This document shows, piece by piece, positions 1,897 through 32,141 of a DNA stretch of 33,845 nt (position 1 is its first letter; the number at the start of each line of letters is the position of its first letter). Source of the DNA: Prevotella sp. (lineage in GTDB: Bacteria > Bacteroidota > Bacteroidia > Bacteroidales > Bacteroidaceae); contig JAFVEE010000053.1 of the NCBI GenBank assembly GCA_017478085.1, positions 1-33,845 of the forward strand, read 5' to 3'. The notes under the pieces were generated by a model. It was not told the DNA's origin and did not search any database. It saw only the letters and a list, made by a program, of their open reading frames with translations. The position numbers and the translations under genes were made by a program.

Positions 1897-1898
1897 TT
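1874..1898 (-). repeat. Heptamer repeats spanning the stop/start overlap of two genes
   Basis: The plus strand reads CTCATTG, four bases, CTCATTT, CTCATTT. The units supply the last codons and the TGA of the 1011-aa gene, and both candidate ATG codons of the 418-aa gene. The units resemble those at 1801-1828. Confidence 0.75.
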
Positions 1899-4800: not shown

Positions 4801-4921
4801 ACGCCTTGGCAAAGCGGCTGAAGTTCTCTACACGCTGAAGCAGCACCGAGTCGGCATCGGCTGCCAGCAGACCGACCGGGGCCAGCAGACCAGCGATGAA
4901 CAGGATGAAGAATCGTTTCAT
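1886..4921 (-). CDS. Large exported macroglobulin-like (MG2-domain) envelope protein
   Basis: A 1011-aa protein with a signal peptide (MKRFFILFIAGLLAPVGLLA). Near residue 44 it has RVYVHFDNTSYYKGEQIWYK, typical of the MG2 macroglobulin-like domains in the large Bacteroidetes proteins often annotated as MG2- or TonB-plug-associated. Beta-sandwich repeats follow, and it ends with a segment around YRRTVYWNP, GRAHIEFFNN and SAQGIT, which resembles the conserved C-terminal region of that family. I do not see the thioester motif of true alpha-2-macroglobulins. The exact role is unknown; an outer-membrane or periplasmic location is likely. It is the first gene of a pair with the 418-aa protein (11-nt overlap) and is divergent from the TlpA-like gene. 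Confidence 0.7.
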   Translation of the reverse strand: MKRFFILFIAGLLAPVGLLAADADSVLLQRVENFSRFAKAFPQERVYVHFDNTSYYKGEQIWYKAYVVRDENLHPTNLSRILYVELLNPIGYPVETQKLVIDKGQAHGSFVLKDTLNAGFYEVRAYTSWMLNFTTGDAHGWDRLRRSEARRHYGERFQRYLQGNAGVFSRVFPIYEKVDSGRYAQRRMARLPKATASLVDPVKDKLEIDFYPEGGNLVRGVPTRVAFQAHNAEGRTLNVAGALYRRGDSIGYFRTDYAGRGVFSVTADSLDTEELTDGLQLRLTYNSHNYRFSLPKARKRGYSLSVFSAGGQLKAMVARNNRTDGLPLGLSITSRGRVYYYNMLDLTASERAVALVDEHSLPTGVNVVTLFTQEGQVLAQRLVFVNNHDLAGLTLKNIGAEASQLTPYQKVSLDYQLTDTAGRPVRTSVPFSIAVTDGPTREETYDDYTILSYLLLGSEVKGFIPHPEYYFEADDNEHRAALDQLLMVQGWTRYDYEQMMSGRQWEPMLAIERGLNFSGRLWDDNDYESKRFWKLQTNKPYWVYSEMYIDGDTVPTDHSLDFWMYATTRDDQHGKAPQIILTGETKVDSSGTFRLNMAPFYGKGRIALMLNKKSIKELGVEGGGVHAHNFRWNTVKRPGFLLSKRVEPLNQYSPLPKNYDYYETAALSDPIDRQMFRYGFMAVPKENRSRIIFYDPKSQTYMLPEVQKKKRRRWSDFSEVTPVCVMDVKDMMAWLSNIYGDISDFKLRENSPYSGGPVDGGYDIMHQMMMDDARWMDEQFGTKDYTKQMERMIYNEKSHTQYELDASAHYARMAELLYIFGLDGMNSTYVGVNEAGDIPHFTSATGSAENLPLNMHFFPVNENFRELQLYADIDNRKLTHQQGNYHETVFSYNPYRTTNESHPLTSIFNFTVGDEYSNDHPLPDFMGFRINFQGFTRPAEFFVPDYDWEPEPEETDYRRTVYWNPQATTDSQGRAHIEFFNNGFSKKLAVSAQGITSGGQTIGAASQLNEK

Positions 4922-4944
4922 AGCAAACCTATTATTTCAGTTTG

Positions 4945-10021: not shown

Positions 10022-10963
10022 CTACAGGATGAAGAGAATAGCGACCGAGAGAATGACGGCCAGCAGCTCGGTGAAGCGGTTGACGTAGATGGAACGCTTC
10101 ATATCGAAGGTGTCGAGCAGACGGGCGTTCTCGCCGATGTAGGGCTTGGTGATGAGCTCGCCGAAATAGTAGTGGGGCCCGCCGAAGCGGCAGTTGAGAA
10201 TGCCGGCCAGCGCCGCCTCTGGGTAACCGCTGTTGGGACTGGCATGCTGTCGACCGTACTTCCACACGAAGCGGAGGAGGCGGGGCCGTCCTTCGACGAT
10301 GAGCATGAGCAGAGCCGTGAGCCGGGCGGGCAGGTAGTTGGCCACATCGTCGATGCGGGCGGCCACGGTGCCGAAGCGGCGGTAGCGCTCCGTGCGGTAG
10401 CCAATCATCGAGTCGAGCGTGTTCACCATCTTATAGGTGAGCATCATCGGCACGCCACCCACCACATACCAGAACAGCGGGGCGATGACGCCGTCGCTCA
10501 GGTTCTCGGCCAGCGTCTCCAAGGCCGCCGTGCGCACCTCCTGGGCCGTGAGCTGCGACGTGTCGCGCCCCACGATGCGGGCCACCTGTCGTCGGCCCTC
10601 GTCCAAGGAGCGGTCTACGGCCAGGAACACCTGCCGCACCTCGCGCACCAGCGTGGTTCCGGCCAGGCAATAGAACACCAGGATGGCCGAGACCACGGTG
10701 TAGAGCCACAGCGGCAGCAGACGGAGCACAAAATAAGTGACGCAAAAGACCAGCGCGATGAGCGCGATGGCGAGCAGTGCCCCTTTCAGTCGGCGGTACC
10801 GGCCTTTGTTCAGCGCGTGCTCGCCTATGGCAATCATACGTCCGAAGAGCACGATGGGGTGAGGCAACCAGGCGGGGTCGCCCAACAGCAGGTCGAGCAG
10901 CCACCCCGCAACGAGGGCGATGATAAGGGCAAGGGCCGGTATTTGCAAATAGATTTCAAGCAT
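10022..10963 (-). CDS. cbiB: Adenosylcobinamide-phosphate synthase CbiB
   Basis: A 313-aa multi-pass inner-membrane protein that joins the aminopropanol arm to adenosylcobyric acid. Conserved signatures visible are LLDLLLGDPAWLPHPIVLFGRMI near the N-terminus, TLAENLSDGVIAPLFWY, MLTYKMVNTLDSMIGY, the SPNSGYPEAALAG stretch, and a C-terminal membrane helix. I chose the ATG at 10961-10963 (MLEIYLQIP); the longer ORF to 11065 only adds residues in the frame of an overlapping gene. It overlaps cobD by 8 nt. It is the last gene of the malQ-to-cbiB series. Its final codons exist a second time at 8718-8756. Confidence 0.92.
   Translation of the reverse strand: MLEIYLQIPALALIIALVAGWLLDLLLGDPAWLPHPIVLFGRMIAIGEHALNKGRYRRLKGALLAIALIALVFCVTYFVLRLLPLWLYTVVSAILVFYCLAGTTLVREVRQVFLAVDRSLDEGRRQVARIVGRDTSQLTAQEVRTAALETLAENLSDGVIAPLFWYVVGGVPMMLTYKMVNTLDSMIGYRTERYRRFGTVAARIDDVANYLPARLTALLMLIVEGRPRLLRFVWKYGRQHASPNSGYPEAALAGILNCRFGGPHYYFGELITKPYIGENARLLDTFDMKRSIYVNRFTELLAVILSVAILFIL
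10043..10081. repeat. 39-bp direct repeat, right copy (inside cbiB 3' end)
   Basis: Codes for the cbiB C-terminal residues VNRFTELLAVILSV and is identical to 8718-8756. Confidence 0.9.
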
Positions 10964-11915
10964 GCAGGTAGTGGTTGATGGCACTGACGAGTGCGTCGTT
11001 TTCGATAGGCAGCTGGGCCGCCACGCGAAAGTGGTGGGGCGTGAGGCCCCGGAAGTTGCTGGCATCGCGGATGAGCATGCCGTGCTGGCGGACCAGGTGC
11101 TCCTTCAGTTGGGTGGCCGTGTGGCCGCTGATGGTGCAGAGCATGAAGTTGGTCTGCGTGGGCAGCACGCTGATACCGTCGATGGCGTTGAGGGCTGCGC
11201 TCAGCCGTTGGGCTTCGGCCAGGTCGGGGCGGATGGGCGTGGCGTGCGCAATGAGGAACAGGCCAGCCTCGATGGCCAGGGCGTTGACCGCCCACGGGCG
11301 CATCTGCCGACGAAGCTGCTGGGCCAGTCGGCGGGCCGCCACGATATAGCCAATGCGCAGGCCGGGCACGCCGTAGGTCTTCGTGAGCGAGTGAATCTGC
11401 ACCACGTTGCCGGCGGCAGCGGCCTCGCGGGGCGTGAGCAGTGGCACCTCGGTATAGCCCTCGTACGACTGGTCGATGACCACCAGGTCGTAGTGGCTCA
11501 TGCGCTCGTAGACGGTCTGCCACGGCAGTACCTCGCCCGTGGGGTTGTTGGGGTTACAGAGCCAGAGGGCCTGGGTCTTCTTGGCATAGGAACGGTACAT
11601 GCGGACGGCATCCTCGTACTCGCTGAAGGTGGGAGCGGCGAAGTGATGGCTCATGCGGAAGGTCTGCGCCGTGAGGTAGATGGCCTCGGTGGCACCGCTG
11701 GTCACGATGACGCACTCCTCGCTGATGCCGTGCTGGCTGGCGATGAGCCGCTCCAGCGAGAGGGCTTCGGGCTCGGGGTAGTTGGCGATGAGGTCCAGAC
11801 GGGTGGCCAGATGCTGCTTCAAGGCCGAGAGATCCACGTGCTGCGGGATGTTCGACGAGAAGTTCATCCGAATGTCCGGGTACTGGTAGGCATCGTCGCC
11901 GTGTCCTTTAATCAT
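10956..11915 (-). CDS. cobD: L-threonine-O-3-phosphate decarboxylase-like PLP enzyme (CobD)
   Basis: A 319-aa fold-type I aminotransferase-like protein. It shows CNPNNPTGE (residues 120-128), the PLP-contacting aspartate in VVIDQSY (D148) and the Schiff-base lysine in HSLTKTYGVPGLRIGY (K179). Next to cobQ and cbiB the natural call is CobD, which makes (R)-1-amino-2-propanol phosphate for the cobalamin nucleotide loop. Close relatives are histidinol-phosphate aminotransferases, which this sequence alone does not exclude; context decides. It overlaps cobQ by 8 nt and cbiB by 8 nt, indicating translational coupling. Slightly shorter than the Salmonella enzyme. Confidence 0.85.
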   Translation of the reverse strand: MIKGHGDDAYQYPDIRMNFSSNIPQHVDLSALKQHLATRLDLIANYPEPEALSLERLIASQHGISEECVIVTSGATEAIYLTAQTFRMSHHFAAPTFSEYEDAVRMYRSYAKKTQALWLCNPNNPTGEVLPWQTVYERMSHYDLVVIDQSYEGYTEVPLLTPREAAAAGNVVQIHSLTKTYGVPGLRIGYIVAARRLAQQLRRQMRPWAVNALAIEAGLFLIAHATPIRPDLAEAQRLSAALNAIDGISVLPTQTNFMLCTISGHTATQLKEHLVRQHGMLIRDASNFRGLTPHHFRVAAQLPIENDALVSAINHYLHA

Positions 11916-13491
11916 GGCGGGTCAGTATTTGGTAGAGTCGCTGCATGTCGAGGTGCCGGCGCACGTGGTCGGCCAGCAGGTCGTATTGCCGCTCCTTGAA
12001 GGCATGATAGTCGAAGGCCTGCGCCCGCTCCTTCGCCTTATCGGCGTGCGGGACCAGCAGGAAGTCAACGAACGTGCTGTTGTCGAGAATGCCGTGCAGG
12101 TAGGTGCCCATACACCGCTGGCTCACGAAGTAGCCGTCTTCACGGCCGTCGCTCAGCAGGCAGAGCGGCTGGGCCGGGGCGTTCAGCGGGGTGGTGCGGC
12201 CCATGTGGATTTCGTAGGCGGTATGGGGGGAATGGGGCTTATGGGGCTTATGGGGCTCATAGGGCCTATAAGCCTCATAAGACTTATTGGCCTTATTGGC
12301 CTTATTGGCCCCATAGGCCCTATTGGGCAAAAGCGAAAACCCTACTTGCCGGGTGGTCTTCTCGCCACTCATCGTGGTGGTGGTGGGCAGCAGGCCCAGA
12401 CCGGGCAGGCGGTCGATGTCGCCCTCTACGTGGTCGGGATCGAGCACCTCCTGCCCCATGAGCTGATAGCCGCCGCAGATGCCCAGGACGCTGGCTCCCT
12501 CGCGATGAGCCCTGACGATGGCCTGGGCGCAGCCGTTGCGGCGCAGCTCCAGCAGGTCGCTGAGCGTGCTCTTCGAACCAGGCAGGATGATGATGTCGGC
12601 CTTCGTGAGATCCTGCGGATTGCTGGTATAATATAAATGTACGCGCGGGTCGCGCTCCAGGGCATCGAAGTCGGTGAAGTTGCTCAGGTGGCGCAGCAGC
12701 ACCACGGCCACGCTGATGCGGCCTTCGCCGCCCGCCTCGCGGCATTTCGCCTCTAAGCTGACGCTGTCTTCCTCCTCAATGTGAATGTCGCGGAAGTAGG
12801 GAATGACGCCCAGCACGGGCACCTGACAGATGTCTTCCAGCATCTTGCGGCCCTCGTCGAACAGGCGCATATCGCCCCGGAACTTATTGATGATGATGCC
12901 CTTGATGCGAGGGCGATCCTCTTCGGTCTGCAAGGCGATGCTGCCATAGACCGAGGCAAACACGCCGCCACGGTCGATGTCGCCCACCAGGATGACGTCG
13001 GCCCCGGCGTGGCGGGCCATCGGCATATTCACCAGGTCGTGGTCGCGCAGGTTGATCTCGCTGATGCTGCCGGCCCCCTCCATCACAATGGGGTTGTAAC
13101 GGGTAGCCAGACGGTCGAAGGCGGCGCAGACCTCGTGGCGGAAATCTATAGAGGTGGAGCCTCCTCCCCAGAAGTCATACGCATCGCGGTTGCCGATGGG
13201 ACGTCCGTGGAGCACCACCTGACTGGTGTGGTCGCTCTGCGGCTTCAGCAGCAGGGGGTTCATATCGGTGTGGCAGGGCAGTCCGGCGGCCTCGGCCTGC
13301 ACAGCCTGGGCGCGGCCTATCTCCAGACCGTCGGGCGTGGCGTAGGAGTTCAGCGCCATGTTCTGCGCCTTGAACGGGGCGGGGTGGTAGCCATCTTGCA
13401 GGAAGATGCGGCAGAGGGCTGCGGCCAGCACGCTCTTGCCCACGTCGCTGCCCGTTCCGGCCAGCATCAAGGGGTGAAGTCTCTGTTTCAA
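11908..13491 (-). CDS. cobQ: Cobyric acid synthase (CobQ/CbiP) with repeat insertion
   Basis: A 527-aa glutamine amidotransferase that amidates adenosylcobyrinic acid a,c-diamide. The N-terminal synthetase domain has the P-loop GTGSDVGKS (residues 12-20), KAQNMALNSY and EGAGSISEINL. The C-terminal GATase domain has the nucleophile C339 in LGICGGYQLMG and H466 in GTYLHGI. Between GFSLLPN and YEIHMGRTTPL a run of about 36 residues is made of tripeptides such as NKA, HKP and YEP, coded by a 9-bp minisatellite. The longest start is a TTG at 13489-13491, 6 nt after the susA stop; an ATG at 13465-13467 is an alternative that shortens the N-terminus by 8 residues. Confidence 0.92.
   Translation of the reverse strand: MKQRLHPLMLAGTGSDVGKSVLAAALCRIFLQDGYHPAPFKAQNMALNSYATPDGLEIGRAQAVQAEAAGLPCHTDMNPLLLKPQSDHTSQVVLHGRPIGNRDAYDFWGGGSTSIDFRHEVCAAFDRLATRYNPIVMEGAGSISEINLRDHDLVNMPMARHAGADVILVGDIDRGGVFASVYGSIALQTEEDRPRIKGIIINKFRGDMRLFDEGRKMLEDICQVPVLGVIPYFRDIHIEEEDSVSLEAKCREAGGEGRISVAVVLLRHLSNFTDFDALERDPRVHLYYTSNPQDLTKADIIILPGSKSTLSDLLELRRNGCAQAIVRAHREGASVLGICGGYQLMGQEVLDPDHVEGDIDRLPGLGLLPTTTTMSGEKTTRQVGFSLLPNRAYGANKANKANKSYEAYRPYEPHKPHKPHSPHTAYEIHMGRTTPLNAPAQPLCLLSDGREDGYFVSQRCMGTYLHGILDNSTFVDFLLVPHADKAKERAQAFDYHAFKERQYDLLADHVRRHLDMQRLYQILTRHD
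12221..12328 (-). repeat. 9-bp minisatellite, 12 units, inside cobQ
   Basis: Twelve consecutive 9-bp units with plus-strand consensus YTATDGGSC, including TTATGGGGC twice and TTATTGGCC three times. They stay in frame and encode X-X-(A/P/S) tripeptides (ANKANKANK through PHKPHKPHS). The run lies in the linker just before the conserved YEIHMGRT of the GATase domain. Confidence 0.92.
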
Positions 13492-17316: not shown

Positions 17317-21976
<4,660 letters not shown>

Positions 21977-22001: not shown

Positions 22002-22009
22002 CAAAATTA
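22002..22009 (-). promoter_or_regulatory. -7 box of the malQ operon promoter
   Basis: TAATTTTG on the minus strand, 26 nt before the malQ ATG. The position 19 nt upstream, where a -33 TTTG would be, reads GACA. The centre of the 18-bp palindrome is exactly 62.5 nt upstream of the first T. Confidence 0.7.
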
Positions 22010-22062
22010 CGACTTTTTCGCCTTAGGCTGTCCCAAACAGAACTATTTATTGACCATAAAAC

Positions 22063-22080
22063 GATGCAAACGTTTGCATC
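22063..22080. promoter_or_regulatory. LacI-type operator upstream of malQ (18-bp perfect palindrome)
   Basis: GATGCAAACGTTTGCATC is a perfect palindrome with the central CG typical of LacI-family operators. Its 12-bp core is identical to the site at 25930-25941 in front of lacI and susC. Confidence 0.82.
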
Positions 22081-22120
22081 CCATTCGAAAATCAAGACAA
22101 ATGAAAATCGCGAAATAGAA

Positions 22121-22151
22121 CGTGGAACATCTGGTTTTACGATGTTCCACG
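22121..22151. repeat. 11-bp hairpin inside copy B
   Basis: CGTGGAACATC (22121-22131) and GATGTTCCACG (22141-22151) pair perfectly around a 9-nt loop. The left arm is part of the 48-bp block conserved in copy A, but the partner arm is not conserved there. Confidence 0.85.
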
Positions 22152-22361
22152 ACCGAAAGCTGAGCATTTTCTTCTATCTTCGCCTGCAACCGACGCTCCA
22201 TTGTCAGCTTTTCAGGTCCGTTTTCCCTCACAAACCACACTCTTTTGCAAGACAACGGAGGCCAAATTGAATGGCAATTCGGGCCTCGTTGCATCGAAGG
22301 ATGGCGAGCAGGCAGAGGCCAAATATTGATAACGCACTGACAACCAGGTTATTGCAAAGCT

Positions 22362-22425
22362 ACCGCGAGAATCGAAAATTTCGGCCCGAAGGAGGAGTTG
22401 CTGACTAATTTTCGATTCTCGCGGT
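22362..22425. repeat. 19-bp palindrome after the RAYT-like gene
   Basis: Arms 22362-22380 and 22407-22425 (ACCGCGAGAATCGAAAATT and complement) are perfect over 19 nt with a 26-nt loop. On the minus strand GTAG occurs at 22432-22435, just before it, and at 22360-22363 at its far end, reminiscent of the GTRG tetranucleotides that mark REP sequences in other bacteria. It may also help end transcription of the lacI operon, although no T-run is seen. Confidence 0.85.
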
Positions 22426-22449
22426 GGGTTGCTACATCTAAAACCCTCT

Positions 22450-23481
22450 TTATTGTGGCTCAAAAGTTTCTGTGACATTAAGGCTATTGCATATCTCTTC
22501 GGCCATTGCGTTGAGGGCCACGCAGTCAGCACGAGTGATATGACGCTTCCGCTCGTCGTAGGGCCAAGGACTGAGAATGAGCACACGACCGGCAGCACAG
22601 GCATCGAAAAGAAAGTCTGCCGGCTTGTAGTAATCGCGGAAGCCATTGTCTGCAAGAAGGACGAAAGGGTGCTGTTCCTGGAGCAGCACCTGCATGACCC
22701 GCTTCTCCTGTGGGGAGATAAAAGGCGAGACCATCACTACCCCCTTGCGAGCCTGCAGCACCCGGCTGTTCATATAGTTGCGCAGCGGTAGGTCTTCGCC
22801 GTGTTCGGCAGCCTTCACCATCGTGCTTCGCACATGAACCGTGTCGAAGGCTTTCTCCATCAAAAGTGCCGCATTACCTACGCCGTCATACCTTCGCCCC
22901 CCAATCTCTATGTCTTTCTGAACACGGAAAAAGCCGGGGTGAAGGCGCTTGATGGCCAACCGCTGCGGGTTCATCTGAACATAGTGGATCATGGTCTTCA
23001 GCTGGCCACGACGGGACAGGGGGCGAATGAAGGGGCGCTCAGTAAAGACGGGGAAGGGATAGCCCCCTTCGTTGGTTACTGCCGAATTTAATTCGGCAGA
23101 AAGGGACAAAGGGTGGGCCTCGGCTGAAAGGGACAAAGTGTAGGCGCGGCCCAGCTTCTTTACCCCTTGCCAATAGCCGCGAACCACGCTGCGGATGCTG
23201 GTGCCCATCACCTGCGTCACATGGATAACGGCATGCAGGTGGTCGGGCATCAGGCAGAACTGGAGAATGCGGATGGCCGGATAGTGCCTGCACATCACGT
23301 ATAGCTCATCAACAACGGCATTGCCCAGGGCAGTTCGCTCTATCCGGGCCAGCGAGGGGTTGTTCTCAGGCATTACCAATGTACCGAGCAATGGCTCGCG
23401 CGACGGTACCGTCAGGGTGATATGATACACCCCGATGCCCCGCCACGCAGTCCCTGGCTCCTGCCATTGCCAGTGCTCCAT
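22450..23481 (-). CDS. RAYT-like (REP-associated tyrosine) transposase with extra C-terminal domain
   Basis: A 343-aa protein. Residues 1-175 have the IS200-like/RAYT layout: YHITLTV (19-25), the HxH metal site in CLMPDHLHAVIHV (H81, H83) and a candidate catalytic tyrosine in MIHYVQMNPQR (Y167). A loop at about 114-136 holds a duplicated LSLSAE. Residues 200-333 are not part of usual RAYTs; KGVVMVSPFISPQEK and PADFLFDACAAGRVLILSP suggest a Rossmann-like, possibly DprA/SLOG-like fold (inference). The ATG (23479-23481) overlaps the TGA of the MFS gene by one base; an ORF reading further upstream lies in the wrong frame of that gene. Palindromes and element copy B follow the stop codon. Confidence 0.75.
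   Translation of the reverse strand: MEHWQWQEPGTAWRGIGVYHITLTVPSREPLLGTLVMPENNPSLARIERTALGNAVVDELYVMCRHYPAIRILQFCLMPDHLHAVIHVTQVMGTSIRSVVRGYWQGVKKLGRAYTLSLSAEAHPLSLSAELNSAVTNEGGYPFPVFTERPFIRPLSRRGQLKTMIHYVQMNPQRLAIKRLHPGFFRVQKDIEIGGRRYDGVGNAALLMEKAFDTVHVRSTMVKAAEHGEDLPLRNYMNSRVLQARKGVVMVSPFISPQEKRVMQVLLQEQHPFVLLADNGFRDYYKPADFLFDACAAGRVLILSPWPYDERKRHITRADCVALNAMAEEICNSLNVTETFEPQ
23079..23099. repeat. Palindrome within the RAYT-like gene
   Basis: CTGCCGAATT, T, AATTCGGCAG: a 10-bp perfect stem with a single central base. It codes for part of SAELNSA and lies beside the duplicated LSLSAE codons. Confidence 0.8.
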
Positions 23482-24794
23482 CAGTTCTTCTGCTCTTTGC
23501 TGCCGATGAAGGTGACGCAGACGGCACCGATGCAGAGCAGCACGCCGGCCACGATCATCATGTTGGCCTGATAAGAGCCCACCATCTTCAGCAGGAAGCC
23601 ACCGCACAGGGCAGCCACAATCTGCGGCAGACAGATGGTGCCGTTGAACAGGCCCAGGTAGGCCCCCATGTGGCCGTAGCCCTGCAGGGCGTTGGTGACC
23701 AGCGTGAAGGGGCAGGCCAGCATAGCGGCCCAGGCACAGCCTATGAGCAGGAAGGGCACGATCTGCATGTACTGGTTGGGGCAGAATGGGATGAGGGCGA
23801 AGCCCAGGCCGCCCAGCACCAGGCTCACGGTGTAGGCCTGCTTCATCGTGGGGAAGCGGGGAATGATCATAGCCCAGACAACCGAGCCCATAGCCTGGAT
23901 GGCATAGAGCACGCCCGTCCAGTTGCCTGCTGTCTGGTAGGCTTCGGAAGAAGAGTCGGCGGTGTCCCAGACGGTCAGCGACACGGCATCGACCACGTAG
24001 GTCCACATATAGAGGAAGGCCGCCCAGCAGAAGAACTGCACCAGACCCACGCGCCAGAAGGCCGAGGGGGCGTTCTTCAGCAGGGTAAGCCAGTTGGCGC
24101 TGCCCTCGTCCTTGGCGGGGGCGGGGTTATACTCGGCATACTCCTTCGGCGTCCACTCCTTCACCTTGAGCGTGGTGTAGACGACGCAGAGGATGAGGAT
24201 GGCGGCACCCACATAGAACGACCACACCACCGACTGGGGCACCACGCCCTCGGGGGCCACGTTCTTCAGGCCAATCCAGGTGAAGAAGAAGGGGAACACG
24301 AAGCCCACCACGCTACCGGCGTTGCACAGGAACGACTGGATGCTATAGGCCTTGCCCTTCTGCTGCTCGTTCACCATATCGCCCACGAGCATCTTGAAGG
24401 GCTGCATAGCCATGTTGATCGACGTGTCGAGCAGCATAAGCATCACGACACCGAAGATGAGCACCATGCTCACCGAGGCCAGTCCCAAGGAGCCGGCATT
24501 GGGCAGCAGGCACATCACGAGCACAGCCATTGTGGCACCCAGGAACAGGTAGGGAATGCGGCGGCCGAAGCGCGTCCACGTCTTGTCGGAGAGCGTGCCG
24601 ATGATGGGCTGCACGAGGATGCCCATGAGCGGCGGCAGGATCCAGAAGAAGCTCAGATCGTGCGGGTCGGCACCGAGCGTGCGGAAGATGCGCGAGATGT
24701 TAGCACTTTGCAGGGCGTAGGCTATCTGCACCCCAAAGAATCCGAAGCTCAGGTTCCAGAGCTTCCAAAAACTCAAGTCAGGTTTCTGTTTCAT
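23481..24794 (-). CDS. MFS sugar transporter (maltose/maltooligosaccharide-type)
   Basis: A 437-aa inner-membrane carrier with about 12 hydrophobic segments. The loop 2-3 motif is GTLSDKTWTRFGRRIPYL (residues 66-83). This form is typical of the SLC45/GPH-like sugar symporters found with Bacteroidetes starch loci. It would bring maltose or short maltodextrins released by SusA/SusB/PulA into the cytoplasm for MalQ. It lies 12 nt after lacI, so the two are co-transcribed, and its stop codon overlaps the start of the RAYT-like gene. The substrate is inferred from context. Confidence 0.85.
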   Translation of the reverse strand: MKQKPDLSFWKLWNLSFGFFGVQIAYALQSANISRIFRTLGADPHDLSFFWILPPLMGILVQPIIGTLSDKTWTRFGRRIPYLFLGATMAVLVMCLLPNAGSLGLASVSMVLIFGVVMLMLLDTSINMAMQPFKMLVGDMVNEQQKGKAYSIQSFLCNAGSVVGFVFPFFFTWIGLKNVAPEGVVPQSVVWSFYVGAAILILCVVYTTLKVKEWTPKEYAEYNPAPAKDEGSANWLTLLKNAPSAFWRVGLVQFFCWAAFLYMWTYVVDAVSLTVWDTADSSSEAYQTAGNWTGVLYAIQAMGSVVWAMIIPRFPTMKQAYTVSLVLGGLGFALIPFCPNQYMQIVPFLLIGCAWAAMLACPFTLVTNALQGYGHMGAYLGLFNGTICLPQIVAALCGGFLLKMVGSYQANMMIVAGVLLCIGAVCVTFIGSKEQKN

Positions 24795-24806
24795 ATTTTC
24801 TTAGGT

Positions 24807-25832
24807 TTATCTTGTTGTTCCCCGGATGATGAGGCGGGTGCGCACGATGCGCTTCTCGGCGCGGGTGATGGGGATGGCGCCCTCGACGTGGCTGATGAGG
24901 ATGTCGGCGGCCTCCTCGCCCACCTTCATGCCATACTGCTCGACGGTGGTGAGCATGGGGTCGCTGGCCACGGCGTGCACATCGTTGGTGAAGCCGCAGA
25001 TGCTGATGTCCTCGGGCACGCGCAGCCCCATACGCTTGGCGGTGTAGAGGATGCCCAGGGCCGTGTCGTCGTTGACGGCGAAGAAGGCATCGGGATAGCG
25101 GTCGCCATTGAACAGCTCGGGCGTCATCATCTCGGCATCGCGACGGTTGTCGCAGATGCGCGTGAACTCGGGCAGGAAGGGCAGGCCGTGCTTCAGCAGC
25201 GCGTCCTTGTAGCCGTTGAAGCGGTTCTTGGCAATCTCCAGGTTCATCCGCGAACCGAAGAAGGCGATGCGCCGACAGCCCGTGTCGAAGAGATGCGTCA
25301 CGGCATTGAAGGCCCCCATATAGTCGTCGACCACCACGCGGCTGGCATTGACGCCGGTGCAGATGCGGTCGTAGAACACCAGGGGCACGCCCGCGTCGAT
25401 GAGCCGCTGGAAGTGGTCGTACTTCTGCGTGTCCTTGGCCTGCGAGACGATGATGCCGCACACCTTGTTCTCGAAGAACGACTGGCACAGCTGCACCTCG
25501 CGCTCGTAGTGCTCGCCGCTCTGGGCCACCATGATGCGGTAGCCGCGTGCCGAGGCCTCCTCCTCGATGCCGTGCAGGATGGTAGAGAAATAGTAGTGGG
25601 CAAACTCGGGAATGATGACGCCGATAACCTTCATAGGCTGCACCCGAGAGTGGCGCAGCGACTCGGCCAGCACGTTGGGCGTGAAGTTGTGCTCGCGGGC
25701 ATACTGCTGAATGAGCAGCCGCCGCTCCTCGCTGATGCGGGGCGAGTTTTTCAGCGCGCGCGACACCGTGGCCACGCTGATGCCCAGCTCGCGTGCTATG
25801 TCCTTCATCGTCAGAGGAATGTTCTCTTTCAT
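24807..25832 (-). CDS. LacI-family transcriptional regulator of the starch locus
   Basis: A 341-aa regulator. The N-terminal helix-turn-helix is LTMKDIARELGISVATVSRAL (from residue 7), followed by the hinge helix NVLAESLRHSR (53-63) and a periplasmic-binding-protein-like sensor domain (VIGVIIPEFAHYYFSTILHGIEEEA onward). I chose the ATG at 25830-25832 because the -7 box TACTTTTG (25866-25873) overlaps the more upstream candidate ATG at 25866-25868. The operator centre is 62.5 nt upstream of that -7 box. It probably binds GCAAACGTTTGC and senses a maltodextrin or sugar phosphate. Classical Bacteroides sus loci use the unrelated membrane regulator SusR; none is visible in this window. Confidence 0.9.
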   Translation of the reverse strand: MKENIPLTMKDIARELGISVATVSRALKNSPRISEERRLLIQQYAREHNFTPNVLAESLRHSRVQPMKVIGVIIPEFAHYYFSTILHGIEEEASARGYRIMVAQSGEHYEREVQLCQSFFENKVCGIIVSQAKDTQKYDHFQRLIDAGVPLVFYDRICTGVNASRVVVDDYMGAFNAVTHLFDTGCRRIAFFGSRMNLEIAKNRFNGYKDALLKHGLPFLPEFTRICDNRRDAEMMTPELFNGDRYPDAFFAVNDDTALGILYTAKRMGLRVPEDISICGFTNDVHAVASDPMLTTVEQYGMKVGEEAADILISHVEGAIPITRAEKRIVRTRLIIRGTTR

Positions 25833-25865
25833 CAGGCTTTTGTCTCTTTTAGTTATTCGGCAATG

Positions 25866-25873
25866 CAAAAGTA
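25866..25873 (-). promoter_or_regulatory. -7 box of the lacI-MFS-RAYT operon
   Basis: TACTTTTG on the minus strand. The -33 position at 19-nt spacing reads GACG, not TTTG. The first T is 62.5 nt from the centre of the shared operator. Confidence 0.65.
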
Positions 25874-25929
25874 TGAAATTCTTTGCAACACGCGTCGCAC
25901 ACCTTATTTATTATGATGCGCGTGGGTGC

Positions 25930-25941
25930 GCAAACGTTTGC
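25930..25941. promoter_or_regulatory. Shared LacI-type operator between lacI and susC
   Basis: GCAAACGTTTGC is a perfect 12-bp palindrome, identical to the core of the malQ operator. It lies exactly midway between the divergent -7 boxes of lacI (first T 25873) and susC (first T 25998). Confidence 0.85.
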
Positions 25942-25997
25942 ATTTATCTATATAACGGTTTTATACAAAAAAAAGTACAACATGTGCAAAAGAAACT

Positions 25998-26005
25998 TAT
26001 CTTTG
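25998..26005 (+). promoter_or_regulatory. -7 box of the susCDEF operon
   Basis: TATCTTTG, followed by a leader of roughly 90 nt before susC. No TTTG occurs 19 nt upstream (GTAC instead), consistent with a promoter that needs an activator. Confidence 0.7.
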
Positions 26006-26099: not shown

Positions 26100-29000
26100 A
26101 TGATGAAGCAGGTAAACTTTAAGATTCCGTTCAGGATGCTTGCCCTCGTTATGGGCCTGTTCCTGGCAATGGGAGCCTTTGCACAAATCACTGTGAAAGG
26201 CAATGTGAAGGATGCTGCAGGCGAAGCTATCATCGGTGCCACGGTGCGCGTGCTGGGAACCCAGACCGCCACGGTGAGCGACTTCGATGGTAACTTCACT
26301 GTGAAAGCCAATCAGGGTGCCGACATTCAGGTAACCTACATGGGCTACCAGCCCGCCACCGTGAAGGCCGCTCCCAGCGTGAGCGTGACGCTGCAGGACG
26401 ACCAGACGGTGCTCGACAACGTGGTGGTCATCGGCTACGGTGTGGCTAAGAAGAACGACCTCACGGGTTCGGTTACGGCCATCAAGCCAGATGAGAAGAA
26501 CCACGGTATGATTACCAGTGCGCAGGACATGCTCTCGGGTAAGATTGCCGGTGTGAACGTGACGAGCAATGGCGGTACGCCCGGTGGCGACGCTACCATC
26601 CGCATTCGTGGCGGTTCGTCGCTCAATGCCACCAGCGACCCTCTGATCGTGATCGACGGTCTGGCACTTGACCGCCAGGGCGTGAAGGGTGCTCCCAATG
26701 CCCTCTCGATGGTGAACCCGAACGACATCGAGACCTTTACCGTGCTGAAGGATGCCTCGGCCACTGCCATCTATGGTAGCCGTGGCTCTAACGGTGTCAT
26801 CATCATCACCACCAAGAAGGGCCGCAAGAACCAGAAGGCACAGGTGAGCTACAATGGCAACGTGTCGTACTCGGTGAAGAAGAAGACCCTCGACGTGCTG
26901 GGTGCCGACGAGTATCGCTCGTTCATCACCAATTATTATGGCGCAGGTTCGGCTGCCGAGGCCCTCCTGGGCACGGCCAACACCGACTGGCAGGAGGAGA
27001 TCTTTGCTCCCGCCGTGAGCCACGACCACAACGTGACCGTGTCGGGCGGTCTGAAGAACATGCCCTACCGCGTCAGCGCAGGCTATACCGACCAGAACGG
27101 TATTCTGAAGACCTCGAACTACCAGCGTGCCACGGCCAGCGTGACGCTGAACCCCTCGCTGCTGAACGACCACCTGAAGTTCAACATCAACGGTAAGTTC
27201 ATGTACTCGCACACCCGCTATGCCAATACCGACGCCATCAGCGATGCCGTGCGGATGGACCCCACGCAGCCCGTGACCAGCAGCGATCCCGCTTTCGCCA
27301 ACTATCGCGGCTACTTCTCGTGGAACAAGGTGGGCACCACGCTCAACGACCCCAACTACCCCACGATGAAGGAGACCAATGCTGCCTACAACCCCGTGGC
27401 CCGTCTGTATGAGAAGAACGACCGTGCCAACTCCTACGACTATATGGGCAATGTGGAGGTTGACTACCAGGTGCACGGCTTCGAGGACCTGCGCCTGCAC
27501 ATGAACTTCAGCGGCGACTGGGCCAACGGCCAGCAGGACACCGACTATGCCAACTGGGGCCAGACCAACTTCTACTATGGCAACAGCGGCAACACCTACG
27601 AGCGTAAGTACAACCTGACCTACTCGGCCTACGCTCAGTACTACAAGGACTTCCTGAAGACGCAGCACTTCGACATCATGGGCGGCTACGAGTGGAGCCA
27701 CACCAAGTACTGGGGTGACTCGTACTACGCTGGCCTGTACCCCCTGACCAATACCGGCACCGTGACGCTCGACGACGGCACCACCGCTCCCGCAGCTGGC
27801 CGTCCCTACACGCCTACGACCAGTATCTGGAAGCAGGAGAGCTACCTGGTGAGCTTCTTCGGACGTATGAACTACATTGCCTTCGACCGCTACATGCTCA
27901 CCGCTACCGTGCGCCGCGACGGTTCCAGCCGCTTCAAGGAGCACTGGGCAACCTTCCCCTCGGTGGCACTGGGCTGGAAGATCAGCGAAGAGGCCTTCCT
28001 GCGCGACAGCAACTGGCTGGAGGAACTGAAGCTGCGCCTGGGCTGGGGTAAGACCGGCCAGCAGGACGGCATTGGCAACTACAACTACTTTGCTTCCTAC
28101 AACGTGAACAAGACCAACATCAATGGTCGCTATCCCATCACCGGTGTCGACGACGAGGGTCTGCTCTATCGTCCCGATGCCTACAACCAGGATCTGAAGT
28201 GGGAGACCACCACGACTTACAACGCAGGTCTGGACTTCAGCCTCTTCAAGAACCGTGTCAGCGGTAGCGTAGACTACTACTATCGCAAGACCACCGACCT
28301 CATCAACAATGCATCGGTGTCGGCCGGTTCGAACTTCCGCAACCAGGTCAGCTCGAACATCGGTTCGCTGGAGAACCGCGGTATTGAGGCAGCGCTCACC
28401 GTGCGCCCCGTGGTCAGCAACAACTGGCAGTGGGAGGTGACGGCCAACTTCGCCTACAACAAGAATGAGATTACCGAGCTTACGGGCGAGTCATCGGTCA
28501 TCAAGACCGGTGGCATCTCGTCGGGTACCGGCAACACCGTACAGGCTCAGGCCGTGGGCCATCCCGCCAACTCGTTCTACGTCTACCAGCAGGTGTACGA
28601 CACCAACGGTCTGCCCCTGGAAGGCGTGTTCGTAGACCAGAATGCTGATGGTCTCATCAACGATGCCGACCTCATCTTCTACAAGAGCCCCGCTGCTCCC
28701 TACACCGCCGGCCTGAGCTCGCGCCTGCAGTACAAGAACTGGGACCTGGGCTTCTCGCTCCGTGCCAGCTTCGACAACTACGTGTTCTGGGACAAGCAGG
28801 CAGGCTACTCGAACGTGTCGAAGCGCTACGATGACTCGTTCAACTATCTGCAGAACGTGATTCCCTCGGCCGTGACCAACAACTGGTCGACCTACAACTA
28901 CGTGGTGTCCGACTACTTCGTGCACAATGCTTCGTTCCTGAAGTGCGACAACATCACGCTGGGCTACTCGTTCGAGAACCTCTTCAAGGCAGGCAACTAC

Positions 29001-29153
29001 AACGGCCTGACAGGACGCATCTATGCTTCGGCCACCAACGTGTTTACCATCACCAAGTACGACGGTATCGACCCCGAGGTGTTCGGTGGCATCGACAACC
29101 AGATCTACCCCCGTCCGTTCACCGTTCAGCTGGGTGTGGCCCTCAATTTCTAA
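26100..29153 (+). CDS. susC: SusC-type TonB-dependent starch-oligosaccharide transporter
   Basis: A 1017-aa outer-membrane protein. A signal peptide (to about residue 29, MGAFAQ) is followed by the CarboxypepD_reg-like domain (30-105), the TonB-box region DNVVVIGYGVAKKNDLTGSV (106-125) and the plug with IRIRGGSSL and VLKDASATAIYGSRGSNGVIIITTKKG (215-241). A large barrel ends in QLGVALNF, with the terminal phenylalanine of outer-membrane proteins. It imports maltooligosaccharides in partnership with SusD. Tandem ATGs at 26100 and 26103 make the first residue uncertain. It is the first gene of a plus-strand operon. Confidence 0.95.
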   Translation: MMKQVNFKIPFRMLALVMGLFLAMGAFAQITVKGNVKDAAGEAIIGATVRVLGTQTATVSDFDGNFTVKANQGADIQVTYMGYQPATVKAAPSVSVTLQDDQTVLDNVVVIGYGVAKKNDLTGSVTAIKPDEKNHGMITSAQDMLSGKIAGVNVTSNGGTPGGDATIRIRGGSSLNATSDPLIVIDGLALDRQGVKGAPNALSMVNPNDIETFTVLKDASATAIYGSRGSNGVIIITTKKGRKNQKAQVSYNGNVSYSVKKKTLDVLGADEYRSFITNYYGAGSAAEALLGTANTDWQEEIFAPAVSHDHNVTVSGGLKNMPYRVSAGYTDQNGILKTSNYQRATASVTLNPSLLNDHLKFNINGKFMYSHTRYANTDAISDAVRMDPTQPVTSSDPAFANYRGYFSWNKVGTTLNDPNYPTMKETNAAYNPVARLYEKNDRANSYDYMGNVEVDYQVHGFEDLRLHMNFSGDWANGQQDTDYANWGQTNFYYGNSGNTYERKYNLTYSAYAQYYKDFLKTQHFDIMGGYEWSHTKYWGDSYYAGLYPLTNTGTVTLDDGTTAPAAGRPYTPTTSIWKQESYLVSFFGRMNYIAFDRYMLTATVRRDGSSRFKEHWATFPSVALGWKISEEAFLRDSNWLEELKLRLGWGKTGQQDGIGNYNYFASYNVNKTNINGRYPITGVDDEGLLYRPDAYNQDLKWETTTTYNAGLDFSLFKNRVSGSVDYYYRKTTDLINNASVSAGSNFRNQVSSNIGSLENRGIEAALTVRPVVSNNWQWEVTANFAYNKNEITELTGESSVIKTGGISSGTGNTVQAQAVGHPANSFYVYQQVYDTNGLPLEGVFVDQNADGLINDADLIFYKSPAAPYTAGLSSRLQYKNWDLGFSLRASFDNYVFWDKQAGYSNVSKRYDDSFNYLQNVIPSAVTNNWSTYNYVVSDYFVHNASFLKCDNITLGYSFENLFKAGNYNGLTGRIYASATNVFTITKYDGIDPEVFGGIDNQIYPRPFTVQLGVALNF

Positions 29154-29190: not shown

Positions 29191-30897
29191 ATGATGAACT
29201 TTAGATATTTCAAAAGCATAGTGCCTGCCGCTGCCATGATGCTGACAATGGCAGGACTGAGTTCCTGCACGGGCGACCTCGACGTGACCCCCATTGATCC
29301 GGGCACCGAGATGAACGTCAGCGAGAAGGGACTCTACCTGAAGTGCTACGCCAACATGGCGCTGGCCGGCAATACGGGTGCCGATGGCGACTGCGACATC
29401 GACGGTCTGGACGGCGGTACCACCGGCTTCGTGCGCCAGTTGTGGAATGCCAACGAGCTGACCACCGACGAGGCCATCTGCGCCTGGGGCGACCCTGGCA
29501 TCGACCAGTTCAACTACAACACCTGGGACGCCTCGCACCCCATGCTGCAAGGCTTCTACTACCGTCTGTATGCAGGCATCAACTACTGCAACCACTATCT
29601 CGACGTGTGCGCCGGACAGGATGCCACCCGCGAGGCTGAGGTTCGCTTCCTGCGCGCCCTCTACTACTACTATCTGATGGACTGCTACGGCAATGTTCCC
29701 TTTGCCACCTCGCTGTCGTCCGAGAGCCCCCAGCGCATAGAGCGCGCCGACCTGTTCAAGTGGATCGAGAGCGAGCTTACCGAGTGCATGGCCAATCTGA
29801 TGGCTCCCGCAGCCCGCACCAGCAAGGACACTGGCTATGGCCGCGCCGACCAGGATGCAGCCAACCTGCTGCTGGCCCGCATGTATCTGAACGCTGAGGT
29901 CTACACCGGCGAGAACCGCTATCAGGACGCCATCACCTACGCTGAGAAGGTCATCAACGGTCCCCACAAGCTGTGGACCTCGAACTCGGCCAATGGCGAG
30001 TGGACGGCCTACCAGATGCTCTTCATGGGCGACAATGGCGAGAGCGGTGCCTCGGTCGAGGCTATCCTGCCCCTGCTGCAAGACGGCATCACGACCACCT
30101 CTTACGGTACCACCCTCTTCCTAATGGCCTCTACCTGGAAGGCCGATATGGACCAGAGCCTCTACAAGGTGAACGGTGTTGAGACCTGGCTGCCCACCGG
30201 CACTTACGATGCCGACACCACGGTCGTGAAGAACCGCGCCTATGGCAGCAGCGAGTTCTGGGCTGGCAACCGCGCCCGCTCTCAGTTCATTGCCAAGTTC
30301 TTCCCCGGCACTGCCGTAGAAGATATTCCCCAGCTGAACATCGACGAGACGGCCAAGGCCGCTGGCGACGACCGTGCCCTGTTCTTCGGCATCGACCGCA
30401 CCATCGTGGTCGACAAGCCCACCGACTATACCTCGGGCTTCGCCGTGGGTAAGTTCCGCAACACCTACAGCACCGGTGCCCAGCCCCACAACGGCAAGTT
30501 CGTAGACACCGACTTCTTCCTGATGCGCTCTGCCGAGGCCTACCTGATTGCAGCCGAGGCCGATGCCCGCCTGAACGGTGGCACCACCACTGCCAAGGCC
30601 AGCTACATCAACCAGCTGCACCAGCGTGCACACTACGCCGTCGAGCTGTCGCAGTACACCCTCGACCAGATCCTCGACGAGCGTGCCCGCGAGCTCTATC
30701 ACGAGGGCTTCCGCCGCACCGACCTCATCCGCTACGGCTACTATGGCGGCGACAAGAGCGCACAGTACCTGTGGGAGTGGAAAGGCGGCGCACAGAACGG
30801 TGCCAGCCTGCCCGCTACGCGCAACCTCTTTGCTATTCCTTCCGAGGATCTGAACGCCAACCCCAACCTGAAGGGATTTCAGAATCCTGGCTATTAA
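29191..30897 (+). CDS. susD: SusD-type starch-binding lipoprotein
   Basis: A 568-aa lipoprotein of the RagB/SusD family (lipobox GLSSC, C26); Bacteroides SusD has 551 residues. The TPR-like helical core includes EVRFLRALYYYYLMDCYGNVPF (residues about 150-171) and LLLARMYLNAEVYTGENRY. The C-terminus has the usual RRTDLIRYGYYGGD and ends ANPNLKGFQNPGY. It binds starch at the cell surface and acts as the lid of SusC. The gap to susC is 37 nt and to susE 32 nt. Confidence 0.94.
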   Translation: MMNFRYFKSIVPAAAMMLTMAGLSSCTGDLDVTPIDPGTEMNVSEKGLYLKCYANMALAGNTGADGDCDIDGLDGGTTGFVRQLWNANELTTDEAICAWGDPGIDQFNYNTWDASHPMLQGFYYRLYAGINYCNHYLDVCAGQDATREAEVRFLRALYYYYLMDCYGNVPFATSLSSESPQRIERADLFKWIESELTECMANLMAPAARTSKDTGYGRADQDAANLLLARMYLNAEVYTGENRYQDAITYAEKVINGPHKLWTSNSANGEWTAYQMLFMGDNGESGASVEAILPLLQDGITTTSYGTTLFLMASTWKADMDQSLYKVNGVETWLPTGTYDADTTVVKNRAYGSSEFWAGNRARSQFIAKFFPGTAVEDIPQLNIDETAKAAGDDRALFFGIDRTIVVDKPTDYTSGFAVGKFRNTYSTGAQPHNGKFVDTDFFLMRSAEAYLIAAEADARLNGGTTTAKASYINQLHQRAHYAVELSQYTLDQILDERARELYHEGFRRTDLIRYGYYGGDKSAQYLWEWKGGAQNGASLPATRNLFAIPSEDLNANPNLKGFQNPGY

Positions 30898-30929: not shown

Positions 30930-32141
30930 ATGAAAAAGATATTTTCGTACGCAATGCTGCTGATGGCCGGCGCATTTGCTTTCACATCGTGCAGCGACGA
31001 CAACGATTCGAACCCCACCATAGCACAGCCTACGGAGTTCGTGCTCAACACGCCTGCCGATGCCAATGGTAACGTAGACCTGGCCAACTCGACTGCGGTG
31101 ACGCTCACCTGGTCGCAGCCCACGCCCTACACCGACTTCAATGCCCCCGTGGTGCCCACCTATACGGTGCAGCTCTCTACGGCAGGAACCTTCAACCAGC
31201 AGTTCGATGCCAACCTGGAGGACAACACGGGTGCCGACTACATAGCACTCGACGAGACCTACGCCAGCGGCAACGATGCCAAGGTGAACACCGAGGCTCT
31301 GAACAAGGCCCTGCTGCAGCTCACGGGCTGGGACGATACCACCATTCCCGCTTCGACCACGCTGTACGTTCGCGTGAAAGCTGCCATCCTCGATGCCTCT
31401 TTCCGCGAGTACAATCCCATCTACTCGAACATCGTCACGATGAAAATCATTCCTTACTACACCGAGCTGAAGCCTGCCGATCCCGAGCTGTGGTACCTCA
31501 TTGGCGGCGATATTGGCGATGGCGCATGGGGCGATGTCGTGGGCGTAAGCCAACTGCCCTTGCAGAGCATCAACGGCTTCGAGTACGACAAGAAGACGGG
31601 CCAGGGCGAGATAACCTGGACGGGCTATCTGGCTGGCAACGGCTTCAAGCTGAAGAAGGTGCCCACCTCGTGGGACGAGCAGTGGGGACAGGGCGATGCC
31701 TTTGGCTCCTACAAGAAGAACGATGGTGGCTCGAGCGACATCAAGGTGCCCGAGGCCGGCATCTACACCGTGACGCTCAATACTGCTACCGACGAACTGA
31801 AGGTCGAGAAGTACGATGGCACGCCTGACGTCTACAGCGGAATGGCCATCTCTGGCTCGTTCAACGACTGGAGCGACACCGACATGGCACCCCTGCACAC
31901 CTACTCTGGTGCCGAGAACCACGACTGGGTTATCACCTACTCGCTGAAAGCTGGCGACGAAATCAAGGTGAAGCAGGCTGGCTCCTGGGACTTCAACAAG
32001 GGTGGCGCATTCGTCAACTACGCCGATGGCATGTATGTCTATGGTGAAGGCAACGGCGCAAATCTGGTCATCGAAGAGGATGGCACCTATATGATTCTCT
32101 TCAACGATATTACGGGCTTCATCCGTTTCATCAAGCAGTAA
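30930..32141 (+). CDS. susE: SusE-like surface starch-binding lipoprotein
   Basis: A 403-aa lipoprotein (FTSC, C21) followed by an acidic stretch SDDNDSN typical of surface-exported Bacteroidetes lipoproteins. The N-terminal SusE domain (about 33-175) carries LTWSQP and TYTVQLS. Two C-terminal starch-binding modules follow, one starting WYLIGGDIGDGAW and the other MAISGSFNDWSD. The Bacteroides relative has 387 residues and binds starch without cutting it. The E/F assignment rests on gene order. Confidence 0.85.
   Translation: MKKIFSYAMLLMAGAFAFTSCSDDNDSNPTIAQPTEFVLNTPADANGNVDLANSTAVTLTWSQPTPYTDFNAPVVPTYTVQLSTAGTFNQQFDANLEDNTGADYIALDETYASGNDAKVNTEALNKALLQLTGWDDTTIPASTTLYVRVKAAILDASFREYNPIYSNIVTMKIIPYYTELKPADPELWYLIGGDIGDGAWGDVVGVSQLPLQSINGFEYDKKTGQGEITWTGYLAGNGFKLKKVPTSWDEQWGQGDAFGSYKKNDGGSSDIKVPEAGIYTVTLNTATDELKVEKYDGTPDVYSGMAISGSFNDWSDTDMAPLHTYSGAENHDWVITYSLKAGDEIKVKQAGSWDFNKGGAFVNYADGMYVYGEGNGANLVIEEDGTYMILFNDITGFIRFIKQ

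Follow-up and report, generated by a model that had tools for sequence, protein, structure and literature searches.

A palindrome, GCAAACGTTTGC, lies at one fixed distance from the promoter boxes of three genes of a starch locus (malQ, lacI and susC) in a 33,845-nucleotide (nt) stretch of Prevotella sp. DNA (assembly GCA_017478085.1, contig JAFVEE010000053.1; the whole stretch is called the window below), and the same distance recurs in related species. We propose that the LacI-family product of the gene at 24807-25832 uses the palindrome as its binding site and activates from about position -73, in a manner resembling class I activators, at promoters that lack a -33 element. We give this reading a probability of roughly 0.74. 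It draws on the geometry, the helical phasing, the missing -33 element, the link with the lacI gene and the mostly starch-type targets, all of them read from sequence.

A palindrome at a fixed distance from three promoter boxes

The window holds two exact copies of GCAAACGTTTGC (22066-22077 and 25930-25941); allowing up to 2 mismatches adds no others. The elements concerned, with the regulator, are the following.

25930..25941, no strand: operator-like palindrome common to lacI and susC, centre 25935.5
22063..22080, no strand: 18-base-pair (bp) palindrome GATGCAAACGTTTGCATC upstream of malQ, centre 22071.5, containing the copy of GCAAACGTTTGC at 22066-22077
25998..26005, plus strand: TATCTTTG, -7 box of susC, 62.5 nt from the palindrome centre, without a -33 TTTG
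25866..25873, minus strand: TACTTTTG, -7 box of lacI, 62.5 nt from the palindrome centre, without a -33 TTTG
22002..22009, minus strand: TAATTTTG, -7 box of malQ, 62.5 nt from the palindrome centre, without a -33 TTTG
24807..25832, minus strand: LacI/GalR-family regulator of 341 amino acids, helix-turn-helix at residues 8-53, sugar-binding domain at 178-340

Distances run from the palindrome centre to the first T of the box TAnnTTTG. An earlier note on this DNA had reported a spacing of 62.5 nt for malQ, lacI and susC, which is exact (the boxes start at 22009 minus, 25873 minus and 25998 plus). Joined into one pattern with a fixed 56-nt gap, palindrome and box matched three times in the window and never in 100 shuffles, whereas the palindrome alone is unremarkable at this window size, with two or more matches (up to 2 mismatches) in 41 of 100 shuffles. 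The significant feature is the spacing, rather than the occurrence of the palindrome. The note had further placed the lacI/susC site exactly midway between divergent promoters; this is true of the window, but in relatives the spacing is 61.5-63.5 nt and not exactly 62.5, so that the palindrome sits midway there only to within 1-2 bp.

As the note had also said, none of the three promoters has a -33 element: no TTTG occurs 20-27 nt upstream of any of their -7 boxes. Its companion statement, that other promoters here do have a -33 TTTG, applies to three of the 12 other TAnnTTTG boxes in the window, where TTTG stands at offset 23, a 19-nt gap (4996 plus, 9947 minus, 223 minus), and fails for the remaining boxes (that at 4931, minus strand, has it at offset 27); some of the 12 sit inside genes. 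Elsewhere in the same assembly, which is 76.57% complete, one more exact GCAAACGTTTGC stands on another contig before a GH13 amylase-like gene, with a one-mismatch box, TAATTTCG, at 62.5 nt and an exact TAnnTTTG also at 21.5 nt.

The spacing is conserved in related species

We collected lacI loci from genomes of other species by protein search (77-87% identity), taking the best 80 of 233 relatives and using all 80. On 161 of the 198 sides of exact palindromes in these loci, a TAnnTTTG box lies at 61.5-63.5 nt (110 at 62.5, 41 at 61.5 and 10 at 63.5), the range that we call canonical. Elsewhere downstream of the same 198 sides there are 3 boxes at 0-60 nt and 5 at 64-300 nt, and 36 same-strand boxes lie upstream. 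Random palindrome-promoter distances in other genomes, which the earlier note had named as grounds for giving up its proposal, were looked for and not found (161 of 198 sides against 8 boxes elsewhere). Counted per exact palindrome (n = 99), 92 have a box in the canonical range, 69 on both sides and 23 on a single side; in another 6 the only box at 61.5-63.5 nt has one mismatch, and 1 (L081, 2425) has none.

With one palindrome mismatch allowed, a canonical promoter is present on the susC side in 78 of the 80 loci and on the lacI side in 76; it is absent from both sides in L062 and in the truncated L073, and from the lacI side in L059 and L077. A further 38 canonical sites occur in 31 of the 80 loci. 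The palindrome has the form of a LacI-type operator with a central CpG, and the lacI-susC interval contains GCAAACGTTTGC or a close variant of it in 78 of the 80 loci, as it does in 19 further loci. Its placement departs from the classical LacI repressor layout, in which the operator covers the -33 and -7 elements or the start (3 boxes at 0-60 nt against 161 at 61.5-63.5). Rather, the site is upstream of, and clear of, the polymerase recognition elements, 61.5-63.5 nt from the -7 box, as in class I arrangements.

A genus-wide search with gaps of 41-71 nt between palindrome and box matched in 190 of 299 genomes, and the reversed control pattern matched once. Among the 150 matches listed (56 genomes), 136 fall at 61.5-63.5 nt, though the pattern permitted 47.5-77.5; the sample and the 80 loci are not independent of each other, as the identical spacers of L028 and G215 illustrate. 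From the genus matches listed we hand-picked 36 single-looking sites, and 26 of them precede starch-type genes: 14 like the amylase-like gene of this genome, 9 malQ, and one each of GH97, a further GH13 and susC.

Three single sites were noted for their surroundings. L134 (G010), a canonical site at 63.5 nt before a beta-lactamase-like gene, an unexpected target, has a second box at 43.5, and its matched sequence is identical in G017 and G076. At L157 (61.5 nt) the box is 331 nt upstream of the ATG of an M16 peptidase gene, and at L152 (62.5 nt) it is 301 nt upstream of that of a GH28 gene.

The spacer diverges and the -33 element is missing

The mean pairwise identity of the 56-nt spacer, computed on records at exactly 62.5 nt only, is 0.52 for susC (64 of 78 records), 0.43 for lacI (50 of 76) and 0.32 for other sites (16 of 38). 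The palindrome-box distance has a standard deviation of 0.56, which is partly built in, as the set was chosen with a box at 61-64 nt (the unrestricted test of spacing is that on the 198 sides of exact palindromes). The distance from palindrome to lacI ATG is variable, with a standard deviation of 33.4, or 11.5 without values above 300 (n = 62). These comparisons indicate that the palindrome-box distance is kept and the spacer sequence much less so. Predicted folding below -8 kcal/mol was found in 23 of the 38 other sites, which were selected by a box at 61-64 nt, in none of the 78 susC promoters and in 4 of the 76 lacI promoters; many of the folding spacers of other sites resemble terminators of the preceding gene.

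Such data bear on the notion that the distance was passively inherited from an ancestral intergenic region and has no function. The lacI/susC region is indeed one orthologous locus throughout the 80 loci, but the same distance recurs before non-orthologous genes (amylases, malQ, GH97), the spacers are dissimilar and some have predicted hairpins, and the palindrome's distance from the lacI start codon varies. The spacing data largely contradict passive inheritance, which we regard as barely credible.

In Bacteroides thetaiotaomicron, 81% of the primary starts mapped show a motif made up of a -7 and a -33 element (available part of PMC7366714). At the usual offset of 23-24 nt (gap 19-20), a -33 TTTG is present in 1 of 206 palindrome promoters (palindromes with up to 2 mismatches) compared with 37 of 130 control promoters from the same 80 loci. 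The absence of the -33 element is a real property of the palindrome promoters. In addition to the -33 peak, the control promoters show a smaller TTTG peak 16 nt upstream of the -7 box (10 of 130, compared with 3 of 206 palindrome promoters).

One conserved stretch lies between palindrome and -7 box, on the susC side only.

25950..25985, plus strand: A-rich/GTACAAC stretch, conserved in the L004-L083 loci

Its consensus is about ataAcg.aTTTaa.tcAAAAAAAgt.t.AAcG, and it could be an A-rich polymerase contact or the site of a second regulator.

Other positions lie about one helical turn away

When the gap was set to 24-53 nt in the genus sample, 36 rows were obtained, 26 of them at 49.5-54.5 nt. 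At least 6 of those 26 have a canonical box for the same palindrome as well and were set aside, which leaves 20 of 30: the candidates at the lacI promoters of G184, G016 and G279 (L171, L172, L187), the row of G170:C42 (L181), and those of G136 and G258. Ten proteins downstream of loci with the closer box only were identified as MFS and SSF transporters, three TonB-type receptors, a GH2 enzyme, a polysaccharide deacetylase, PGA_cap, a pectin enzyme and one unmatched protein, so that these loci look like other regulons. In G058, three sites on three contigs (L174, L175, L176) all stand at 51.5 nt, before a GH2 gene, a gene without a Pfam match and a polysaccharide deacetylase gene, and apparently form another regulon one turn closer. 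The -33 TTTG is absent in 10 of the 11 closer promoters examined. With gaps of 59-89 nt there were 15 rows, 6 of them at 70.5-73.5 nt.

In a sample of 198 genomes of the order, the 28 matches outside this genome fall at 50.5-52.5 (5), 60.5-65.5 (15) and 72.5-74.5 nt (6), with 2 elsewhere; the clusters, near 51, 62 and 73, are about one helical turn apart. The periodicity has p = 0.00025 against a uniform null, and the satellites alone p = 0.0018 for period 11, with the clusters named post hoc and rows from one genome not independent. A SusC relative lies downstream in 10 of the 18 order loci examined. On this comparative basis the sites display the helical phasing of class I arrangements, with a 3-bp main range and satellites about one turn away. 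The 'strict helical phasing' suggested in the earlier note can be retained as phased upstream sites on promoters without a -33 element; 'strict' has to be read as plus or minus 1 bp.

The site co-occurs with the lacI gene

The protein encoded at 24807-25832 joins an N-terminal LacI helix-turn-helix (PF00356, 53.8 bits, cut-off 27) to a C-terminal periplasmic-binding-like domain (PF13377, 110.6 bits, cut-off 26.5), and is the presumed binder of both window palindromes. Of the 299 genus genomes, 241 encode a relative at E <= 1e-90, and palindrome sites were found in 186 of these 241 compared with 4 of the 58 genomes without it (Fisher p = 6e-24, a value that ignores genome relatedness; both tables were read by hand). 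From the 55 genomes with lacI and no pattern match we fetched 18, chosen from the better lacI matches listed. In all 18 the palindrome is present in a form with 1-2 mismatches, and the lacI-side box stands at 60.5-63.5 nt; 17 also have a susC-side box at 61.5-62.5 nt. In a further genome, G189, two palindromes each serve one side.

Two of the four lacI-less genomes with sites depart from the canonical range (G027, 60.5 nt twice; G272, 70.5 and 76.5). A malQ relative is present in 15 of 16 lacI-less genomes examined, with a TAnnTTTG box up to about 370 nt upstream in 6 of the 15 and none in 9; a -33 element accompanies 2 of those 6 boxes, and one of these two (L244, G129) shows in addition a palindrome with 2 mismatches at 61.5 nt. 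No SusC match at E <= 1e-150 was found in the same 16 genomes, in a search that had no positive control.

It could be that the palindrome is read by another protein, a paralogue or a member of a different family, and not by the neighbouring LacI-family one. The assembly has two other LacI-family genes, GCAAACGTTTGC is a general LacI-family type of site, the same core stands at 51.5 nt before other kinds of gene, and a canonical site persists in two genomes that have no lacI match. Yet the site lies between lacI and susC in nearly all of the 80 loci and follows this lacI gene across the genus in the proportions given above, and we judge another reader distinctly improbable.

A model for activation of the starch genes

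Binding, start sites, activation, polymerase contact and effector are what we infer from this pattern. If the box is centred at -7, as in B. thetaiotaomicron (PMC7366714, available part), its first T would lie near -10.5, the palindrome near -73 and the satellites near -62 and -84. The LacI-family protein would dock on the palindrome as a dimer and activate from about -73. The promoters keep a -7 box without a -33 element and should therefore be weak for unaided RNA polymerase, which would depend on touching the bound regulator, most probably with the C-terminal domain of its alpha subunit. This contact would require one face of the helix, which would hold the distance at 61.5-63.5 nt, and related regulons would use a position one turn closer or further. 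As the single lacI/susC site is symmetric and would serve both directions, lacI would activate itself and susC together, a positive feedback, and separate palindrome copies would do likewise for malQ and the amylase genes. The effector is probably a malto-oligosaccharide. As a class I activator, E. coli CRP works strongly from -61.5 and also from -71.5/-72.5 and -81.5/-82.5, but not from -66.5 (PMC6301791, in the text available); CRP-like preferred positions together with the missing -33 element favour upstream activation.

Several observations weigh against this model. LacI-family proteins are mostly repressors. Exceptional distances occur at lacI promoters, 49.5 nt in G251 and 71.5 nt in the similar promoters of G268 and G275 (counted among the further sites above), and G176 and G085 (68% complete), both without a lacI match, have a canonical site before an amylase-type gene. 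One closer promoter of the 11, L185, carries a -33 TTTG, and the best-fitting period in the order sample, 11.5 bp, exceeds the 10.5-bp turn. The pattern is rare outside the order (10 and 3 of 277 genomes class-wide, this genome and the genus included). Ten of the 36 single sites have no recognisable starch gene downstream, the neighbours being a beta-lactamase-like gene, GH28, an M16 peptidase, a distant OmpA-like gene, one gene without a Pfam match and, in five cases, no clear gene. The regulator itself matched 19 NCBIfam models but reached the cut-off of none, so that a function cannot be transferred by name. Finally, GalR at -60.5 represses galP1 by contact (PMC4693257, available text), and as it both represses and activates from there, phasing alone does not settle the sign of regulation.

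Contact repression of this GalR-like kind is the main rival: from the same phased site the protein would keep polymerase inactive until sugar lifts the block, in the way that GalR acts at galP1. This reading also predicts phasing, and the distance is similar to that from which GalR represses P1 and activates P2 (PMC4693257). But the promoter would then have to fire alone or with another activator, yet its -33 box is absent and no second conserved element stands out outside the lacI/susC sites (the susC side has one). A LacI paralogue in the same genome (contig C20, L223, around 1413-1460) also argues against it: ACGTAAACGTTTGCGT is centred 25.5 nt from that gene's own -7 box and its TTTG occupies the -33 place, by its layout an ordinary repressor arrangement, so that not every LacI-type site in this genome looks like those of the starch genes. 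For the other paralogue (L221), no palindrome was found in a 16-base scan, which also misses the lacI/susC site of the window, or in a 12-base scan, which also misses the imperfect site of L223. We hold contact repression to be unlikely and prefer activation from about -73.

Relation to known systems

To our knowledge, activator action on the unusual promoters of Bacteroidota is poorly known. No description of LacI-family starch control in Bacteroidetes or Prevotella was found in the open-licence literature searched, including the available portions of PMC3878776, PMC10766802 and PMC11784079, and among the literature matches listed there was nothing specific on class I LacI activators or on Prevotella copri start-site maps.

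The proposed arrangement resembles CRP class I activation, known from the E. coli lac promoter and a spacing series, in its dimeric upstream site and preferred positions one turn apart (PMC6301791, available text). It differs in that the protein is of the LacI family, the promoter is a Bacteroidota one with a -7 box and no -33, the alpha contact is conjectural, and one position, predicted near -73, dominates where CRP has -61.5. CcpA of B. subtilis (ackA, pta, ilvB) is a LacI/GalR-family protein whose sites upstream of -35 go with activation in a helix-face-dependent manner (PMC3463425, available text), which makes it an example of upstream activation within the LacI family. It acts globally, in concert with HPr-Ser-P, and activated just three genes in that study; the regulator here would be local to starch use, with one geometry at nearly all of its sites, and its score against the NCBIfam ccpA equivalog model is 138.5 bits where the cut-off is 442.35. 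GalR, at the external operator of the gal operon, shares the family, the position at -60.5 and a polymerase contact that activates P2, but also represses P1 and loops with a second, internal operator (PMC4693257, available text), whereas the window has no further palindrome (up to 2 mismatches) beside the two described.

SusR of B. thetaiotaomicron activates starch (sus) genes of the same kind. It is a membrane sensor with long direct-repeat sites; the protein here is not of that type, since its Pfam matches are LacI helix-turn-helix and sugar-binding domains with weak matches to other helix-turn-helix models, and its site would be a single palindrome. For Bacteroides, the available text of PMC3878776 assigns starch control to SusR and lists predicted LacI-family regulators for uronic acids.

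LacI-family activators and class I geometry are each known separately; what did not turn up in the open-licence literature searched is their combination as the regular layout of a starch regulon, on Bacteroidota promoters that lack a -33 element. The nearly fixed site distance suggests that a family best known for repression turns starch genes on. If so, a single protein would activate in response to sugar, and its targets could be predicted from sequence by a simple rule of spacing; the palindrome on another contig of this genome, which precedes an amylase-like gene at the same distance, is an example. Activation at promoters without a -33 element would become open to direct tests that need no more than a single site, a single protein and altered spacers, and the arrangement might be turned into an inducible system for gut bacteria. 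On balance, we lean towards a broader statement: in Prevotella relatives, with one-turn variants elsewhere in Bacteroidales, LacI-family proteins may be mainly class I activators of SusC-type uptake genes, on a whole set of promoters that would have lost the -33 element and come to rely on a LacI-family dimer near -62, -73 or -84; regulator and uptake system would be switched on together from a single symmetric site.

The starch locus and its surroundings

The starch/maltose locus of the window comprises malQ, an MFS transporter gene and the lacI-type gene on the minus strand, followed by susC, susD and a susE-like gene on the plus strand.

19556..21976, minus strand: malQ, GH77 4-alpha-glucanotransferase with CBM20 (PF02446 and PF00686 over cut-off)
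23481..24794, minus strand: MFS sugar transporter (PF07690 over cut-off), directly downstream of lacI
26100..29153, plus strand: susC, SusC/RagA TonB-linked outer-membrane receptor (TIGR04056, 768.7 bits, cut-off 368.25)
29191..30897, plus strand: susD (PF07980 over cut-off)
30930..32141, plus strand: susE-like outer-membrane protein (PF14292 over cut-off)

Judged by its adjacency, the MFS gene is probably in the lacI operon. The sole NCBIfam match of susD is NF033071 SusD, at 462.8 bits under a cut-off of 725. Between malQ and the MFS gene lies a 24-nt inverted repeat, 92% complementary (22357-22430), beside an open reading frame (22450-23481) with a weak match to a REP-associated tyrosine transposase (22.1 bits, cut-off 80). 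Genes of cobalamin type adjoin the starch genes at 10022-13491 (CobD/CbiB, an aminotransferase and a CobB/CobQ-type amidotransferase), and a 1011-amino-acid open reading frame without a Pfam match at E <= 1e-5 occupies 1886-4921.

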